From an uncultured Deferribacteres bacterium (GTDB lineage: Bacteria > Zhuqueibacterota > JdFR-76 > DREG01): 36,686 bases of DNA. The DNA lies in assembly GCA_913009825.1 (NCBI GenBank), contig CAJVYQ010000054.1, positions 1-36,686 of the forward strand, given 5' to 3'. Shown here in pieces: positions 3,103 to 10,432 of this stretch. Each line of letters begins with the position of its first letter. Position 1 is the stretch's first letter. Made by a program: the position numbers and the translations under genes. The notes under the pieces were generated by a model. It did not search any database, had not been told where the DNA came from, and saw nothing but the letters and a program-made list of their open reading frames with translations.

Positions 3103-3142
3103 GTAAGTAAGGCGTTACGATTTTCTGTAATACCTCACTTAC
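3103..3142. repeat. Palindromic repeat unit, one arm repeated at 3371
   Basis: The arms 3103-3118 and 3127-3142 are complementary with three mismatches around an 8-base loop. The segment 3104-3127 recurs in direct orientation at 3371-3394 with two mismatches. It may also act as a terminator-like hairpin after the peptidase gene, although no T-run follows. Confidence 0.6.
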
Positions 3143-3394
3143 GGGTTGATAATAAAATGCAATCAGCGCTAAAAGATTCAAGTTCTGTTTACATCAGGTA
3201 TTTATATTGCTCATCTAATGTTCTGTAACCCCCAATAGCACACGGATTACGCGGATGACACAGATACACACGGATAAAATCTGTGAAAATCCGTGTCATC
3301 CGTGTCATCCGTGTGCTGTTTACTATTTTGGTTGAACAGATATAATAACATAAACAAATATTCACACCAATAAGTGAGGTGTTACGATTTTCTG
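3127..3394. repeat. Inverted-repeat element upstream of the trp promoter
   Basis: The outer ends (3128-3140 AATACCTCACTTA and 3371-3384) are inverted copies of each other. The interior holds a second inverted repeat built from the CCGTGTCATCCGTGT motif (about 3237-3316). No reading frame is present. The element ends about ten bases before the -35 box of the trp operon, so it supplies the sequence just upstream of that promoter. Confidence 0.55.
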
Positions 3395-3404
3395 AAAAAA
3401 AGTC

Positions 3405-3433
3405 TTGACTTTCATAAGGCCATTCCTTATTTT
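3405..3433 (+). promoter_or_regulatory. Sigma70-like promoter of the trp operon
   Basis: There is a TTGACT at 3405-3410 and a TATTTT at 3428-3433, separated by 17 bases. Transcription would begin near 3440, before the leader-peptide ribosome site (GGGA at about 3450). A TATAAT at 3442-3447 is also present but is too close to the leader start to be the main -10 box. Confidence 0.55.
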
Positions 3434-3456
3434 ATTCAAAATATAATTTGGGAAAA

Positions 3457-3543
3457 ATGATGCATTTCAATTCTTCATACAAAACTAAACGCAACAACTG
3501 GTGGTGGTACTATCTGCAGAGTGGGTTTTGCATGTTTGATTGA
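3457..3543 (+). CDS. trpL: trp operon leader peptide (TrpL-like), three tandem Trp codons
   Basis: This short frame encodes 28 residues, from ATG 3457 (a second ATG follows at once) to TGA 3541-3543. Codons 15-17 are TGG TGG TGG (3499-3507), preceded by two Asn codons and followed by two Tyr codons. Three adjacent Trp codons in a short frame just before a terminator and trpE are the hallmark of ribosome-mediated attenuation: scarcity of charged tRNA-Trp stalls the ribosome and favours an antiterminator. The peptide itself is not expected to have another role. The name is given by function and position, not by sequence similarity. Confidence 0.85.
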   Translation: MMHFNSSYKTKRNNWWWYYLQSGFCMFD

Positions 3544-3606
3544 AATCAGATAATTTTGTCATAGAATTTTATAAAGCCCGCTCATAGCAGCGGGCTTTTT
3601 ATTTGT
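3476..3606 (+). promoter_or_regulatory. trp attenuator: alternative RNA hairpins and terminator
   Basis: The terminator stem is AAAGCCCGCT (3573-3582) with AGCGGGCTTT (3589-3598), loop CATAGC, followed by a T-rich tract. Segment 2 (3519-3529, GAGTGGGTTTT) can pair with 3573-3583 through eleven pairs including two G-U wobbles, which would block the terminator. Segment 2 can instead pair with segment 1 (3476-3486 with 3524-3534, one mismatch). A ribosome stalled at the Trp codons (3499-3507) would cover segment 1 and free segment 2. All three pairings were worked out by eye from the bases. Confidence 0.82.
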
Positions 3607-3636
3607 ACAAAAGAATAAATTAGACAGGTATTCGAG

Positions 3637-5115
3637 ATGAAATTTGCAGAATTTAAAAAACTGGCCCAACCGGGCAAAATTGTTCCGGTTTTCCGCAAGC
3701 TAAATGCTGATTTTATCACGCCGGTCTCCGCTTACCTCAAACTGCGGGAAGACGGGAATTATTCATTTCTGCTGGAAAGCGTTATTAAAGGTGAACATTT
3801 GGGCCGTTACTCATTTATCGGATTTAACCCCTTCCGGGTGATTTCTATCCGGGGACAAAAAACAGTCATTAAGGAAATCAATTCAAACAGATACTCGGAA
3901 GAAAATTTTTTTCAATTATTACGATTACAGCTTTATGAGTATGAATCCGCCCAAATCGATGGCTTGCCGGCGTTTACCTGCGGCATGGTTGGATTTCTGG
4001 GCTATGATATGATTCATCACATCGAAATCCTGCCCAATTCAAATTTTGATCCGGTTAAAACCGAAGACGCAAAATTAGCCGCTTATCATAATATTGTTGC
4101 TTTCGATCATCTGAAGAATGAAGTGATTTTAATTGCAAATTCCTTTGTTCATCCGGAGTCGGATGTAACCCGGCTTTATAAAGATTCGGAAGACCGTTTG
4201 AATCAAATTCTGGATCGGTTAAACAGACGACTTTCTTATAACGGTCAATTTAAATTAGACTCCGCCAAATCCTCCAGCAACTTTAAACAGGCCGATTTTG
4301 AACAGGCTGTTAAAAAAGCAAAAGATTACATTTTAAGCGGCGATATTTTCCAGGTTGTTTTATCTCAGCGGTTTCAGATGGATTTTTCCGGGAACCCTTT
4401 TCAAATCTACAGGACTCTTCGCAACATTAATCCTTCTCCTTACATGTTTTATTTAGACATGGTTGATTATCAGCTCATCGGTTCTTCTCCGGAACCGCTG
4501 ATTCGATCAAACGCACAAGAGTTGGAAATTATTCCGATTGCAGGCACACGTCCTCGTGGGATCAACGATGAAGAAGATAAAAAATTAGCGGAAAATTTAT
4601 TAAACGATCCAAAAGAACTGGCGGAACATGTGATGTTGGTAGATCTGGCCAGAAACGATCTGGGGCGCGTATCAGAATTTGGCAGTGTGAAAGTTCACGA
4701 GTTTAAAACCATCGAACGATATTCTCATGTGATGCACCTCATCTCAAAAGTCAAATCGAAACTCAGGGAAGGGATCACTTCTGTGGAGGCCTTTAAAGCG
4801 GCATTTCCGGCCGGTACTGTTTCCGGCGCCCCTAAAATTCGGGCGATGGAAATCATCGATGAATTGGAACCTGATAAACGAGGCGTTTACGCCGGCGCGG
4901 TTGGTTATTTCGATTTTTCCGGGAATATGGATTTGTGTATTGCCATCCGGATGATTCTGGCAAAAGGCCAAAAGCTGTTTTTTCAGGCCGGCGCCGGAAT
5001 TGTTGCGGACAGCGATCCGGAAAAAGAATATGAAGAAACCGTCTATAAAGCTGTCGCTTTAAAGAAGGCAATCATCCAGGCTTCGGAGGGTATCCATGAT
5101 TTTATTTATCGATAA
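3637..5115 (+). CDS. trpE: Anthranilate synthase component I
   Basis: TrpE converts chorismate and ammonia (from the TrpG subunit) to anthranilate, the first committed step of tryptophan synthesis. The protein has 492 residues, normal for the family. Visible signatures are LLES (45-48), the conserved feedback-inhibition motif near the N-terminus, the chorismate-binding region with GSSPEPLIR and PIAGTRPRG, and GTVSGAPKIRAMEII near residue 392. It is the first structural gene after the attenuator, and its end overlaps trpG by 20 bases, which suggests translational coupling. The LLES motif implies allosteric inhibition by tryptophan as well as transcriptional attenuation. pabB is a less likely alternative given the full trp operon context. 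Confidence 0.97.
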   Translation: MKFAEFKKLAQPGKIVPVFRKLNADFITPVSAYLKLREDGNYSFLLESVIKGEHLGRYSFIGFNPFRVISIRGQKTVIKEINSNRYSEENFFQLLRLQLYEYESAQIDGLPAFTCGMVGFLGYDMIHHIEILPNSNFDPVKTEDAKLAAYHNIVAFDHLKNEVILIANSFVHPESDVTRLYKDSEDRLNQILDRLNRRLSYNGQFKLDSAKSSSNFKQADFEQAVKKAKDYILSGDIFQVVLSQRFQMDFSGNPFQIYRTLRNINPSPYMFYLDMVDYQLIGSSPEPLIRSNAQELEIIPIAGTRPRGINDEEDKKLAENLLNDPKELAEHVMLVDLARNDLGRVSEFGSVKVHEFKTIERYSHVMHLISKVKSKLREGITSVEAFKAAFPAGTVSGAPKIRAMEIIDELEPDKRGVYAGAVGYFDFSGNMDLCIAIRMILAKGQKLFFQAGAGIVADSDPEKEYEETVYKAVALKKAIIQASEGIHDFIYR

Positions 5116-5671
5116 TTACGATTCGTTCACCTACAATCTGGTAGATTATTTTGGCCGGTTTGAACCCAATTTAATGGTTGTGCGGAATGATAAAATTTCT
5201 AGTCAAAGAATTCGAAACTTAAAACCCCGGGGAATAGTCATCTCACCCGGCCCCGGCGTCCCGGAAAATGCGGGAATCTGTAACGAAGTAATCAAAAATT
5301 TTTACAAAGATATCCCAATTCTGGGCGTTTGTCTCGGGCACCAATGTATCGGTTCTGTCTTTGGCACGAAGATAAAAAGAGCCCCGGCGCCGGTTCATGG
5401 CAAAACAGCGGATATTTATCATCATTCTACAGGAATATTTTCAGACCTGCCCTCTCCATTCCAGGCAGCCCGCTATCATTCCTTAATGATTGATAAAACG
5501 ACTCTTTCAACCGAACTGGAAATTGTGGCCGAAACAGATGATAAAATCATCATGGGAATTCAACATAAAAGATATCCGGTAATCGGTGTGCAATTTCATC
5601 CGGAATCGATCTTGACCGGTTGTGGATTTAGTTTGCTTGAAAACTGGTTGAAAATGTTTGTTCGGCCATAA
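5096..5671 (+). CDS. trpG: Anthranilate synthase component II (glutamine amidotransferase)
   Basis: TrpG hydrolyses glutamine and passes ammonia to TrpE. The 191-residue protein has the class I amidotransferase layout: the FIDNYDSFTYNL start, an oxyanion region SPGPG, the nucleophile Cys79 in GVCLGHQ, and the catalytic His/Glu in QFHPES near residue 170. The start codon lies inside the end of trpE with GGAGGG six bases upstream. The family also serves p-aminobenzoate synthesis (PabA), so a shared role is possible, but its place in the operon points to tryptophan. Confidence 0.96.
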   Translation: MILFIDNYDSFTYNLVDYFGRFEPNLMVVRNDKISSQRIRNLKPRGIVISPGPGVPENAGICNEVIKNFYKDIPILGVCLGHQCIGSVFGTKIKRAPAPVHGKTADIYHHSTGIFSDLPSPFQAARYHSLMIDKTTLSTELEIVAETDDKIIMGIQHKRYPVIGVQFHPESILTGCGFSLLENWLKMFVRP

Positions 5672-5699: not shown

Positions 5700-6713
5700 A
5701 TGTTAAAAACTATTCTCGAAAAAGTCTCAGATGGGGACGACTTAACCCGAAACGAAGCAGCGGCGGCTTTGGAAACAATTGTCAGGGATGAAGCTTCGCC
5801 AACCGAGGTAGGGGGGCTCCTTATCGGCTTGCGGGTTAAAGGCGAAACGGAAGAAGAAATTTTAGGGTTTGTCGAAACTATGGAAAAATACATGGTAAAA
5901 GTTCATCTTCAGAATCAGGATGCCATCGATGTTTGTGGCACAGGGGGGGACGGCAAACATTCGTTTAATGTATCAACAACCACTGCCATCGTTGTAGCCG
6001 CAGAGGGAGTTTCTGTGGCAAAACATGGAAATCGCTCGGTTTCCGGTAGAACCGGATCTGCTGATCTTTTACAGGAATTGGGAGTTAAAATTGATTTGAA
6101 TGCCGATAAAGTGAAACAGTGTGTCGACGAAATCGGTATTGGCTTCTTTTTTGCGCCTCTCTTTCATCCGGCCATGAAAAATGTTGCTCTCCATCGCAAA
6201 AATCTTGGCCTGCGAACCGTCTTTAACATGTTGGGACCGTTGTTAAATCCTGCCCGGGTAAAAAGACAATTGATTGGCGCTTATGATTCTGAAACTGCAA
6301 AAAAACTTGCCGTGGTTTTAAAAATGCGCGGTTATACAAAAGCTTGTACTGTTCATAGTTTAGACGGATTTGACGAGGTGTCACCTTTTTCTCAAAATGA
6401 TATATTTGAAGTGAATAAAAATCTGAATGAAATTAAAACCTATCGATTTGAGAAACCCTACGGCAAATTTGGTTTGGATGAAATTACAGGAGATGATCAA
6501 AGAAAAAACGCCGGGATTACACTATCTGTGTTGGCAGGAGAAAAAAATGCTGCCCGGGAAATGGTTGTACTGAATTCCGGTTTTGCGTTTTATGTAGCCG
6601 GCAAGACAAACACGGTAGAAGATGGCATCCTTCTGGCGGAAAATGTCCTTGATAGCGGCGCGGCAAAACGGAAATTGGATCAGTTTGTGGAAATGAGTAA
6701 TCGTTTGAATTAA
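5700..6713 (+). CDS. trpD: Anthranilate phosphoribosyltransferase
   Basis: TrpD transfers the phosphoribosyl group of PRPP to anthranilate. The protein has 337 residues, typical of the free-standing enzyme. The PRPP-binding signature CGTGGDGKHSFNVST lies at about residues 79-93, followed by AKHGNRSVSGRTGSADLL and the HPAMKNV and MLGPLLNPA blocks. There is an AAGGAG ribosome site before the ATG and a 28-base gap from trpG. TrpG and TrpD are not fused here, unlike in E. coli. Confidence 0.97.
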   Translation: MLKTILEKVSDGDDLTRNEAAAALETIVRDEASPTEVGGLLIGLRVKGETEEEILGFVETMEKYMVKVHLQNQDAIDVCGTGGDGKHSFNVSTTTAIVVAAEGVSVAKHGNRSVSGRTGSADLLQELGVKIDLNADKVKQCVDEIGIGFFFAPLFHPAMKNVALHRKNLGLRTVFNMLGPLLNPARVKRQLIGAYDSETAKKLAVVLKMRGYTKACTVHSLDGFDEVSPFSQNDIFEVNKNLNEIKTYRFEKPYGKFGLDEITGDDQRKNAGITLSVLAGEKNAAREMVVLNSGFAFYVAGKTNTVEDGILLAENVLDSGAAKRKLDQFVEMSNRLN

Positions 6714-6809: not shown

Positions 6810-7610
6810 ATGAATCTTTTAGAACAAATCGTTAAAAATAAAAAAAAAGAAGTTGCGGCAGCGAGGAGAAAAAAAACAAGTTCGCAGTTGATTATTGAAT
6901 CGGGAAGTGAACAACCCCGCCACAGTTTTTTCAGTTTGTTGAACGAAAAGAATGGTTTTCACTTCATTTGTGAAATTAAAAAAGCCTCGCCTTCCCAGGG
7001 AATGATTCGGGCAAATTTTGATCCCTGCAAACAAGCGCAGAATTATCTTGAAGGCGGCGCCTCCGCCATTTCGATTTTAACAGACGAGAAATATTTTCAG
7101 GGACATCTTGATCATCTCAAACAAGTTCGTAAAATTGTCTCACTGCCGGTTCTGAGAAAAGATTTTATCATCGATCCATATCAAATAATTGAATCGAAAG
7201 TTGCCGGCGCCGATATGATCTTGTTAATTTCCCGAATTCTCACCAAAAATCAGATTGCCGTGTTCAGAAATATGGCTTTGGCATTGAAATTAGATGTTCT
7301 GCTTGAAATTGCTGAAGAGAGAGAGTTGGAAAAAATCGATAATTTCGAAAACATGATCCTTGGTATAAACAACCGCAATCTGAAGACATTTGAAGTCGAT
7401 TTGAATAATTCTTTGACCATCAAAAAGGTCATCCCCCCGGTTGTGCCGACTGTCAGTGAAAGCGGCATTCAATCTGTTGATGATTGTCTATTGTTGGCAG
7501 AGAACGGTTTTCGGGGTGTATTGGTTGGCGAAACTTTGATGAGGGCGGGTAATCCCAGAGGGTTGTTACAAGAATGGAACAGGAAAATTAGTGATGTTTA
7601 CCCGGCTTAA
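6810..7610 (+). CDS. trpC: Indole-3-glycerol phosphate synthase
   Basis: TrpC closes the indole ring from carboxyphenylamino-deoxyribulose phosphate. The 266-residue protein has the family motifs CEIKKASPSQG (about residue 52), LTDEKYFQG, LRKDFIIDPYQI, GINNRNLKTF and SESGI. The gap from trpD is 96 bases, the longest inside the front part of the operon, and includes a short copy of the CCGTGTCATTCGG repeat motif (about 6763-6776). The ribosome site before the ATG is weak. The last 17-20 bases overlap trpF. Confidence 0.96.
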   Translation: MNLLEQIVKNKKKEVAAARRKKTSSQLIIESGSEQPRHSFFSLLNEKNGFHFICEIKKASPSQGMIRANFDPCKQAQNYLEGGASAISILTDEKYFQGHLDHLKQVRKIVSLPVLRKDFIIDPYQIIESKVAGADMILLISRILTKNQIAVFRNMALALKLDVLLEIAEERELEKIDNFENMILGINNRNLKTFEVDLNNSLTIKKVIPPVVPTVSESGIQSVDDCLLLAENGFRGVLVGETLMRAGNPRGLLQEWNRKISDVYPA

Positions 7611-8229
7611 AATTTGTGGTATTACCAATCTTGAGGATGCTTTAACCTGTATCCGTTATGGAGTAGATTTTCTTGGATTTAACTTTTATCCCGGCAGCCC
7701 AAGATACATCCCGCCGGAAGATGCAAAAAAAATCATCGGCCGACTGCCGTTTTACATTCAGACCGTTGGAATTTTGGTCCGGCCGGATTTTGAAAAAATA
7801 TGGGAAATTGTAAGAAATAGCGGAGTTTCTGCGGTTCAAATTTACGAGCCGGAGGGTGCGATCGATTTTACTAAAATTCCGGTTCCGGCCATATTAGGGC
7901 TGCGAATAGAAACTCAAATAAAAAAAATAGCCCGGACCGGCAATGTAACAATGGTTTTGGTCGATAGCTTTTCCTGCAAACAATTTGGCGGAACAGGAAA
8001 AACATTTGATTGGCACATGATTCCGGAAAATATTTTAACTGAGAAATTGATTTTGGCCGGCGGTATTCATGCGGAAAATATCGGCGACGCCTTAAACGAG
8101 ATCAATCCGGCCGTCATCGATGTGGCCAGCGGTTCTGAAAAATCTCCGGGCGTTAAAGATCCGCAAAAAATAAAAAAAATGATGCAAATAATAACCGAAC
8201 ACAATTTAGAAGCGATCCAAAATGAGTAA
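7594..8229 (+). CDS. trpF: Phosphoribosylanthranilate isomerase
   Basis: TrpF carries out the Amadori isomerisation of phosphoribosylanthranilate. The protein has about 211 residues in a TIM-barrel layout. It begins with TRLKICGIT, whose Cys is the usual general base, and contains [17 protein letters not shown], and the phosphate-binding [11 protein letters not shown] and VDVASGSE. The start is either GTG 7591 or ATG 7594; I prefer the ATG, with AGGA nine bases upstream. It overlaps trpC upstream and trpB downstream (8 bases), so translation is probably coupled. Confidence 0.95.
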
Positions 8230-9430
8230 TTGTCAAAATTATAACTTCCCGGATCAGAAAGGATATTTCGGAGAATTCGGCGGACAATTTGTGCCCGAGG
8301 TGTTACGGCCGGCGCTGACGGAATTGGAACAGGCCTATACAGAGTTGAAAAATTCTGCTGATTTTAAGGAAGAATTTCGCAACGATTTAAAATTTTATGC
8401 CGGCCGGCCGACGCCTCTCTATTTCGCTGAAAATTTAACCAATCATTTTCAACGAGCAAAGATTTATTTAAAACGGGAAGATTTAAATCACACCGGCGCT
8501 CATAAAATAAACAATACAATTGGTCAGATTCTGCTGGCAAAAAAAATAGGCAAGCGGAGGATTATAGCGGAAACGGGCGCCGGGCAGCACGGAGTAGCCA
8601 CCGCAACCGTTGCCGCACGCTCCGGTTTGCAGTGTTGTATTTACATGGGCGCCGGGGACGTTAAACGCCAGTATCTGAATGTCCAGAGAATGAAAATGTT
8701 GGGCGCGGAAGTTCGGACTGTTCACACTGGTACGAAAACATTGAAAGACGCAACCAACGAGGCCCTTCGGGATTGGCTAACCAATGTGAAAAATACCCAC
8801 TATATCATCGGCTCGGTTGTGGGGCCTCATCCGTTCCCAATGATTGTGCGGGATTTTCAGAAAGTAATCGGCGAAGAGGTAGAAAACCAGATTCAAGTTT
8901 TGGCAGGCAGGCTGCCTGATTACTTGCTTGCCTGTGTCGGCGGGGGCAGCAATGCTATCGGCCTGTTTTATTCCATGTTAAAATATAAGCAGATCAGAAT
9001 GATCGGAGTTGAGGCCGCCGGTTGCGGTATCGAATCTAAAAAACATGCTGCAACTTTGTCAACAGGCTCTCCGGGCGTTTTCCATGGTATGAAATCTTAC
9101 CTGTTGCAGGATGAAAACGGACAGATTAAATTGGCTCATTCCATTTCTGCAGGATTGGACTATCCGGGAGTAGGGCCGGAGCATAGTTTTCTGAAAGATC
9201 AGACCCGTGTTCAATATTTTTCCGTCTCTGACAAACAGGCCATAGCAGCTTCATTTTTACTGAGCCGGTTAGAGGGGATCATCCCTGCTTTAGAGAGCGC
9301 TCATGCTCTGGCATTTCTGGAAAATTTAGTGCCAAAAACTTCTGACAGCGAGATCGTGATTGTGAATCTGAGTGGCCGGGGAGATAAGGATATGGCAACG
9401 TTTGGACGGTTTTTCACGGAATATAGATAA
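8222..9430 (+). CDS. trpB: Tryptophan synthase beta chain
   Basis: TrpB joins indole and serine to tryptophan using pyridoxal phosphate. The 402-residue protein is of the standard TrpB1 type: it starts with [13 protein letters not shown], the PLP lysine is Lys95 in GAHKINN, and Glu117 in AETGAGQHG is the catalytic acid. The phosphate-binding loop GGGSNAIG and the C-terminal SGRGDKD are present. It overlaps the end of trpF by 8 bases. An inverted-repeat element sits between this gene and trpA, so the usual tight trpB-trpA coupling is broken here. Confidence 0.97.
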
Positions 9431-9564: not shown

Positions 9565-9640
9565 TAAAATTTTTATCTGCCGGGAAAAAAGTTTTTTATG
9601 GTTTCGGTTAGTACAAACCATGAAAACAAGACAGGAAAAA

Positions 9641-10432
9641 ATGAGTAAAAAACTGATTGCATTACTTGAAACAAAAAAAGAAAAAGGAGAAAAGCTCCTT
9701 TCTATTTTTATTACGGCCGGATTTCCTGATCCGGATGCCTGCGTAGAAATTATTTTAATACTGGCTGAGGCCGGCATCGATTTTCTGGAACTCGGGCTGC
9801 CTTTTTCTGATCCCATCGCAGACGGCCCTGTGATTCAATCCGTTTCACAACAGGTTCTTGAACAGGGATTTGAAATTGCGCAGATTTTTGATATCGTACA
9901 ACAGGTTCGAAAATGCTCCCCAATTCCAATCCTGATTATGGGATATTTGAATCCTTTGTTTCACATGGGGATTCCGGCTTTTTTGAAGCGGACTCATTCC
10001 GCGGGCGCAGATGGATTGATTATTCCGGATTGGCCTCCCGAAGAATCGCTGAATTATTTACCTTTATTACAATCATTGGATTTAGATCTGATCCATTTAA
10101 TTGCACCCAATACTCCCCGTGCGAGAATCCGGGAAATCGATGCTTTAACTACTGCGTTTTTATATTGTGTTGCTTACACCGGGGTTACCGGCCGGAGCAA
10201 TCAAATGCCGGCAGATACGCGCAATTTTTTCTGTCAATTAAAAAAGAATGTTGTGAAACCCCTGATCATTGGATTCGGCGTGAAGAACCGGGAGGAGTTT
10301 ATTAATTTTTCCCAATATGCAGATGGTGTCATTATTGGTTCCGCTTTTCTTGAGTTGATAAAGCGAACCGACCCGGGAGAACGAAAAAACGCTGTAGAAA
10401 AATTTGTGCAAAGTGTTTTGAGCAAACGGTAA
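9641..10432 (+). CDS. trpA: Tryptophan synthase alpha chain
   Basis: TrpA splits indole-3-glycerol phosphate to indole, which is channelled to TrpB. From ATG 9641 it has 263 residues. The catalytic residues are Glu50 (LELGLPFSDP) and Asp61 (IADGP), and the phosphate-binding GFGVKNREE and GVIIGSAF are present. I chose 9641 over the in-frame ATG at 9620 because AGGA lies about six bases before it, while 9620 has no ribosome site. The gap from trpB is 210 bases, mostly the MITE-like element, so trpA may depend on readthrough or its own promoter. Confidence 0.95.
   Translation: MSKKLIALLETKKEKGEKLLSIFITAGFPDPDACVEIILILAEAGIDFLELGLPFSDPIADGPVIQSVSQQVLEQGFEIAQIFDIVQQVRKCSPIPILIMGYLNPLFHMGIPAFLKRTHSAGADGLIIPDWPPEESLNYLPLLQSLDLDLIHLIAPNTPRARIREIDALTTAFLYCVAYTGVTGRSNQMPADTRNFFCQLKKNVVKPLIIGFGVKNREEFINFSQYADGVIIGSAFLELIKRTDPGERKNAVEKFVQSVLSKR

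Follow-up and report, generated by a model that had tools for sequence, protein, structure and literature searches.

The trp operon and its leader region

The window analysed here is the whole stretch of 36,686 nucleotides of contig CAJVYQ010000054.1, which belongs to a host genome of 5.1 Mb in 123 contigs. It carries the genes trpEGDCFBA, which are presumed to form one operon:

3637..5115, forward strand: trpE, anthranilate synthase component I, the first regulated gene (TIGR00564, 561.8 bits, cut-off 517.7)
5096..5671, forward strand: trpG (TIGR00566, 213.9 bits, cut-off 121)
5700-6713, forward strand: trpD, open reading frame named by sequence reading and by synteny with the trp operons of relatives
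6810-7610, forward strand: trpC, open reading frame named in the same way
7591-8229, forward strand: trpF, open reading frame named in the same way
8222-9430, forward strand: trpB, open reading frame named in the same way
9620-10432, forward strand: trpA, open reading frame named in the same way

No aro or tyr genes were found 3' of trpA in this operon. The closest named trpE, with 60% identity, is that of a Calditrichaceae MAG, and the 82 genomes that served as the comparison group at phylum level were therefore taken as Calditrichota. The start of trpE lies 38 nt past the stem of a terminator, which closes a leader region with the following parts:

3405..3433, forward strand: promoter found by a scan, with -35 box TTGACT (3405-3410), a 17 nt spacer and -10 box TATTTT (3428-3433)
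near 3440, forward strand: putative transcript start
3450..3453, forward strand: weak Shine-Dalgarno-like GGGA, 3 nt before the ATG at 3457 and 6 nt before the ATG at 3460
3457..3543, forward strand: leader peptide frame MMHFNSSYKTKRNNWWWYYLQSGFCMFD of 28 codons, with ATG at 3457-3459 and stop codon TGA at 3541-3543
3476..3486, forward strand: strand 1, CATACAAAACT, partner of 3524-3534, a pairing present in the minimum-energy fold
3499..3507, forward strand: three tandem Trp control codons, TGG TGG TGG, read from the sequence
3519..3530, forward strand: strand 2, the 5' half of the antiterminator, partner of 3572-3583
3573..3583, forward strand: strand 3, common to antiterminator and terminator
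3573..3604, forward strand: intrinsic terminator, in which 3573-3582 pairs with 3589-3598 (the 3:4 stem), followed by TTATTT

The first-pass annotation had read this region as a classical ribosome-mediated trp attenuator, and the coordinates that it gave for the leader frame and the three Trp codons were found to be exact. The frame holds a second ATG at 3460, and two Tyr codons (3508-3513) stand directly after the Trp codons. The promoter that it had placed upstream was graded fair, with a weak -10 box; a TTGAC(A) located about 17 nt 5' of a TA...T box recurs, by eye, before the leader in many relatives. The annotated terminator hairpin, AAAGCCCGCT-CATAGC-AGCGGGCTTT (3573-3598), was recovered with a stem of 10 bp, 6 of them G-C, and an energy of -16.0 kcal/mol, and it belongs to the sole terminator detected between 3300 and 3700. 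Both alternative pairings were likewise present. Strand 2, GAGTGGGTTTT (3519-3529), pairs with AAAGCCCGCTC (3573-3583) at 11 of 11 positions, two of them G-U, and the 1:2 pairing, assessed in the window sequence only, forms 10 of 11 pairs with a single mismatch between A3479 and C3531. Strand 2 is located wholly within the leader frame, and the leader stop codon follows 13 nt past it. The parts, their order and their spacing are thus read directly in the DNA.

Repeats occupy the region further upstream. An imperfect inverted repeat of ACACGGATNACNCGGATGACAC units spans 3238-3320, immediately 5' of the promoter region, and this hairpin was the only cause of matches to miRNA precursor models in a lax Rfam search, which were rejected. 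In addition, GTTACGATTTTCTG is repeated at 3106-3160 and 3373-3396, with AAGTGAGGTGTTACG and GTAATACCTCACTTAC close by, possibly as part of a small mobile or regulatory repeat.

Alternative folding and the proposed switch

The segment 3440-3610 was found to fold more stably than shuffled sequences (z = -2.6). The 2:3 duplex had an energy of -22.3 kcal/mol, shuffled versions averaging -9.3 kcal/mol (z = -5.5). In equilibrium folding with strand 4 out, the terminator was always favoured, so the switch would have to be kinetic, as it is in known attenuators. The effect of a stalled ribosome was modelled by folding the RNA that it leaves free, its edge being set at 12-13 nt beyond the first base of the A-site codon, a generally known value. 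With the ribosome on the first, second or third Trp codon and RNA up to 3588, the model gave P(2:3) = 1.00. A ribosome placed on the second Tyr codon masks the beginning of strand 2, and P(2:3) went down to 0.20; at the leader stop codon 3:4 alone remained possible. The difference between 1.00 and 0.20 supports the Trp codons, rather than the two Tyr codons, as the main control codons here.

The element is very probably, judging from its sequence, a ribosome-mediated transcription attenuator of trpEGDCFBA that senses charged tRNA-Trp. When Trp is plentiful, the ribosome would pass the three Trp codons and, strand 2 being part of the leader frame, cover that strand as well; 3:4 would then form and RNA polymerase would halt past the U tract. 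Under Trp shortage, the ribosome would wait on a Trp codon with its leading edge just short of strand 2. Strand 3, on emerging, would pair with strand 2, the terminator would be blocked and trpE would be transcribed. This scheme is a prediction of stalling, kinetics, termination efficiency and response to Trp.

A Trp-dependent attenuator could also work through another sensor, and T-boxes, TRAP and riboswitches do control trp genes in Firmicutes. TRAP-like arrays of GAG/UAG were seen by eye before trpE at five clostridial or Bacillota-type loci (L007, L028, L029, L072 and L079). At the locus studied here, no T-box (RF00230) or riboswitch match was obtained among the 39 hits for 3200-3800 in Rfam searches up to E = 10, and a TRAP-type array of about 11 GAG/UAG triplets is absent from 3440-3572 by reading. 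Conserved Trp codons would be needless in any of these systems, and such a sensor is given almost no credence.

The best Rfam match of the window was RF00513, Trp_leader (E = 0.0007, 29.2 bits), below the gathering score of 41. The match begins at 3531, which leaves the Trp codons outside, and the terminator stem AGCCCGC/GCGGGCT fits the Trp_leader consensus.

The host genome was also scanned for Trp triplets. The string TGGTGGTGG occurs at 49 places in its 5.1 Mb, and each of them was examined for a short frame whose start codon precedes the Trp codons and for a hairpin with a U tract, at least as stable as -12 kcal/mol, within 120 nt. Only two places passed, namely the window element and one before trpB2; among the near misses, L158 has a hairpin and no start codon, and the hairpin of L236 reaches only -11.7 kcal/mol. 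Thus a blind search for Trp triplets led to two putative attenuators, both 5' of genes for Trp synthesis. When five His codons were searched for, three places emerged, one of which is attenuator-like. The two further candidates in the host genome are:

G000:C2:47364-47372, reverse strand: second Trp attenuator (L134 / L242), with leader MFFNLDWRFWWGWWWFVSKLKKEPNLRF (...WRFWWGWWWF...) and a terminator, followed by trpB2
G000:C27:23524-23541, forward strand: His attenuator (L287), with leader MDYTKRYHHHHHHVKVKLNL containing six His codons and a hairpin with U tract, followed by hisG

The TrpB-like product of trpB2 matched TIGR01415 with 652.6 bits, and WxGWWW-type leaders before trpB2 were also found in families f3, f15, f16 and f19. 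The antiterminator duplex of the His leader was significant (p = 0.014); the name hisG for the gene behind it comes from sequence reading.

Conservation across Calditrichota and distribution of TrpR

The comparison used the DNA upstream of trpE in those Calditrichota genomes that gave a full-length trpE match. A Trp-rich leader followed by a terminator was found 5' of trpE in 33 genomes of 13 families, genomes within a family not being independent. The leader frame and stem are therefore kept by relatives, in support of the classical trp attenuator proposed in the first-pass annotation. The leader cores read WWW, WWWW, WxGWW or mixed W/Y/F. In L083, the nearest relative with a leader region, WWWY is kept and the remaining leader has diverged, while the other member of the window's family reads WWWYS.

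Complementarity between strands 2 and 3 exceeded that of dinucleotide shuffles in 31 of the 33 genomes at p < 0.05, and in 23 at p < 0.01. Here the segment that follows the last Trp codon was compared with the 5' arm plus loop of its own terminator, a version chosen after the pairings had been seen; the earlier version, restricted to the arm, was significant in 19 of 35 and is underpowered for families in which the loop side is the partner of strand 2. Strands also paired better with their own partners than with those of other families (Wilcoxon p = 7e-9; 36 leaders, 3 of them from other phyla). The alternative pairing is thus kept although the sequences differ. The paired core starts 6-22 nt past the last Trp codon, close to the expected edge of a stalled ribosome.

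This conservation also bears on the notion that frame and hairpins came together by chance and that the hairpin merely terminates an upstream transcript. AGCCCGC...GCGGGCT is indeed a common terminator sequence, and it holds most of the weak Rfam match. Against it, the arrangement recurs in 33 genomes with its 2:3 pairing kept despite sequence change, and just 2 of the 49 TGGTGGTGG places are alike, both before Trp genes. Coincidence is accordingly regarded as exceedingly improbable, and the attenuator remains the preferred reading.

No leader was found in families f5-f10, where trpE is mostly not the first gene of the operon (the upstream region reads as trpA). Leader and terminator were also not found in L087, L099 and L103, which are genomes of attenuator families. 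TrpR (PF01371) scored above the cut-off in 5 of the 82 genomes, all in f6 and f7, both of which are without the attenuator; none did so in attenuator families, with two sub-threshold matches in f23. Neither TrpR nor attenuator was seen in f5 and f8-f10. The two modes of Trp control appear not to overlap within the phylum. Since no TrpR was detected in the host genome, attenuation would carry its transcriptional Trp response largely alone. If attenuation acts alone, the leader stop 13 nt past strand 2 would hold basal read-through low.

Leader regions were also collected from Neomarinimicrobiota (L194-L214 and L216-L223), the sample being the 30 closest trpE matches and not a random one. An aromatic leader with a terminator was present in 28 of 29 trpE-upstream regions. 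Their 2:3 duplex is short (GGGGTT/AACCCC) and reached p < 0.05 singly in 11 of 28, so that the alternative pairing is less certain than the leader. On this comparison, most Calditrichota with trp operons, plus Neomarinimicrobiota, are predicted to use leader-peptide attenuators.

Variants in relatives and comparison with known attenuators

The codons of the leader were found to vary with the content of the operon. The operon of f12, f22 and part of f23 runs past trpA into genes for chorismate mutase and DAHP synthase and into tyrA, aroA, aroE and aroC, and the leaders of these extended operons read, for instance, GFWFWYWYYYY or NFYWYFIWYYY. In Neomarinimicrobiota the cores are of the YYYWWF type where aro genes follow trpA, and WW or WWW where none follow. 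The count of Tyr plus Phe near the Trp codons was higher in aro-linked operons (Mann-Whitney p = 7e-6, 30 genomes, uncorrected for relatedness), a contrast present inside f23, between Calditrichota families and inside Neomarinimicrobiota. The exceptions are three aro-linked leaders with only two Tyr or Phe codons, and f19 and f20, which have DAHP synthase alone and Trp-only leaders.

Truly mixed W/Y/F leaders in relatives and in Neomarinimicrobiota, together with the sequence WWWYY of the window leader, would suit a general sensor of aromatic amino acids (Trp as well as Tyr) that uses the two Tyr codons after the Trp codons. The window operon has no aro or tyr genes, however, and its leader has only two Tyr or Phe codons near the Trp codons, like other Trp-only operons. 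Moreover, the low P(2:3) modelled for a stall on the second Tyr codon and the WWWYS of the other family member speak against it, and general aromatic sensing is considered improbable. A trp-only operon with a Trp-centred leader is in line with the relation between operon content and leader codons.

Tandem terminators, each with a U tract, were observed in families f3, f14, f15, f16, f19, f20 and f21, between the Trp leader and trpE (L095, L102, L104-L106, L108, L109, L111-L113, L115, L116 and L120). Each of the 13 genomes shows complementarity (p <= 0.02 in every case) between strand 4, which is the 3' arm of the first terminator, and strand 5, which forms the 5' arm of the second. This suggests a relay, in which 2:3 would free strand 4 for pairing with strand 5 and so disarm the second terminator; such a step would be needed because disarming the first terminator alone would be useless. 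The 4:5 complementarity could be a by-product of hairpin duplication, the two hairpins having a common origin. Against this, one position of the f20 sequence has flipped orientation in 3:4, 4:5 and 5:6 together, and when the partners were shifted by one, two or three columns, the paired cells fell from 95% to 42-58%; double changes in this test of 11 sequences amount to two cells only, so formal covariation is modest. A column-wise 4:5 covariation test on a MAFFT alignment with f19 and f21 was discarded, its arms being misaligned. For 2:3, the duplex test was relied on because the f16 columns are misaligned in the 11-sequence MAFFT alignment. A leader MMSKTILSKTGWWWRNSIGGVCLLP with two hairpins sharing GCCGTG was noticed about 100-280 nt before trpE in L030 (Syntrophobacterales), which looks tandem in Desulfobacterota too, with p = 0.13 for 4:5.

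The median distance from the 3' end of strand 2 downstream to the leader stop is 22.5 nt in single-terminator families versus 1 nt in tandem families (Mann-Whitney p = 2e-6, not corrected for relatedness). Both designs that theory proposes for attenuation-only operons look like being in use here, in families without detected TrpR. If so, the relay would serve lineages with the stop beside strand 2, and a far-downstream stop the single-terminator lineages. A mixed Trp/Tyr/Phe leader, in turn, would open a whole trp-aro supraoperon upon any aromatic shortage.

Leader-peptide attenuation would then operate in the majority of Calditrichota that make Trp and in almost all of the sampled Neomarinimicrobiota that have a close trpE homologue. 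The phylum would offer a natural experiment, in which operon content predicts the leader codons, stop position predicts one or two terminators, and TrpR does not occur together with the attenuator. Sequence-bound Rfam models would miss such attenuators, as the sub-threshold score of the window suggests. No report on attenuators of Calditrichota or Neomarinimicrobiota was found in the open-access literature, and for a search of that scope the lack of a report is weak evidence. On balance, we lean towards attenuation being a standing control of aromatic synthesis in both phyla, with mixed-codon trp-aro leaders and a double-terminator relay that are undescribed in searchable papers.

Isolated cases of attenuation in Bacteroidetes/Chlorobi are reportedly mentioned in the 2004 abstract of Vitreschak and co-workers. 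A survey of 2010 described leader-peptide systems as formerly limited to Proteobacteria and Actinobacteria, and added His leaders in Firmicutes (PMC2965389). The first-pass annotation had expected that an attenuator in an FCB-type genome would extend the known range or show convergent evolution. The extension stands in that Calditrichota are outside the phyla of the survey; the FCB label needs qualifying, as NCBI taxonomy places Calditrichota beside, not inside, the FCB group, which does include Neomarinimicrobiota (Fidelibacterota).

The leader of E. coli, trpL, has two Trp codons. The window element resembles it in its tandem-Trp leader frame, its 2:3 and 3:4 alternatives, its putative 1:2 pairing and its terminator before trpE; it differs in having three Trp codons and in that the leader frame spans all of strand 2 and closes with a stop codon 13 nt further on. 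By anatomy it would belong to the trpL class, yet it is outside RF00513 by threshold. The E. coli operon is under dual control (PMC1183508), whereas no TrpR was detected in the window's genome. The trp attenuators of Corynebacterium and Streptomyces similarly keep UGG doubles or triples, a terminator and alternative pairing across genomes; they belong to another phylum, and their conserved gGCC-rGCy-GGCC triples differ from the Calditrichota motifs (PMC1262725). In the his attenuator of Salmonella, an extra hairpin between pause hairpin and terminator has been argued to lower basal read-through (PMC1183508). The tandem Calditrichota families resemble it in having an extra hairpin and an attenuation-only operon, and differ in that the extra hairpin of f3, f14-f16 and f19-f21 is a terminator in its own right, followed by a U tract, and belongs to a trp operon. 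Compared with these systems, the window element itself is ordinary and Trp-specific, and the relay and mixed leaders of its relatives would be new variants.
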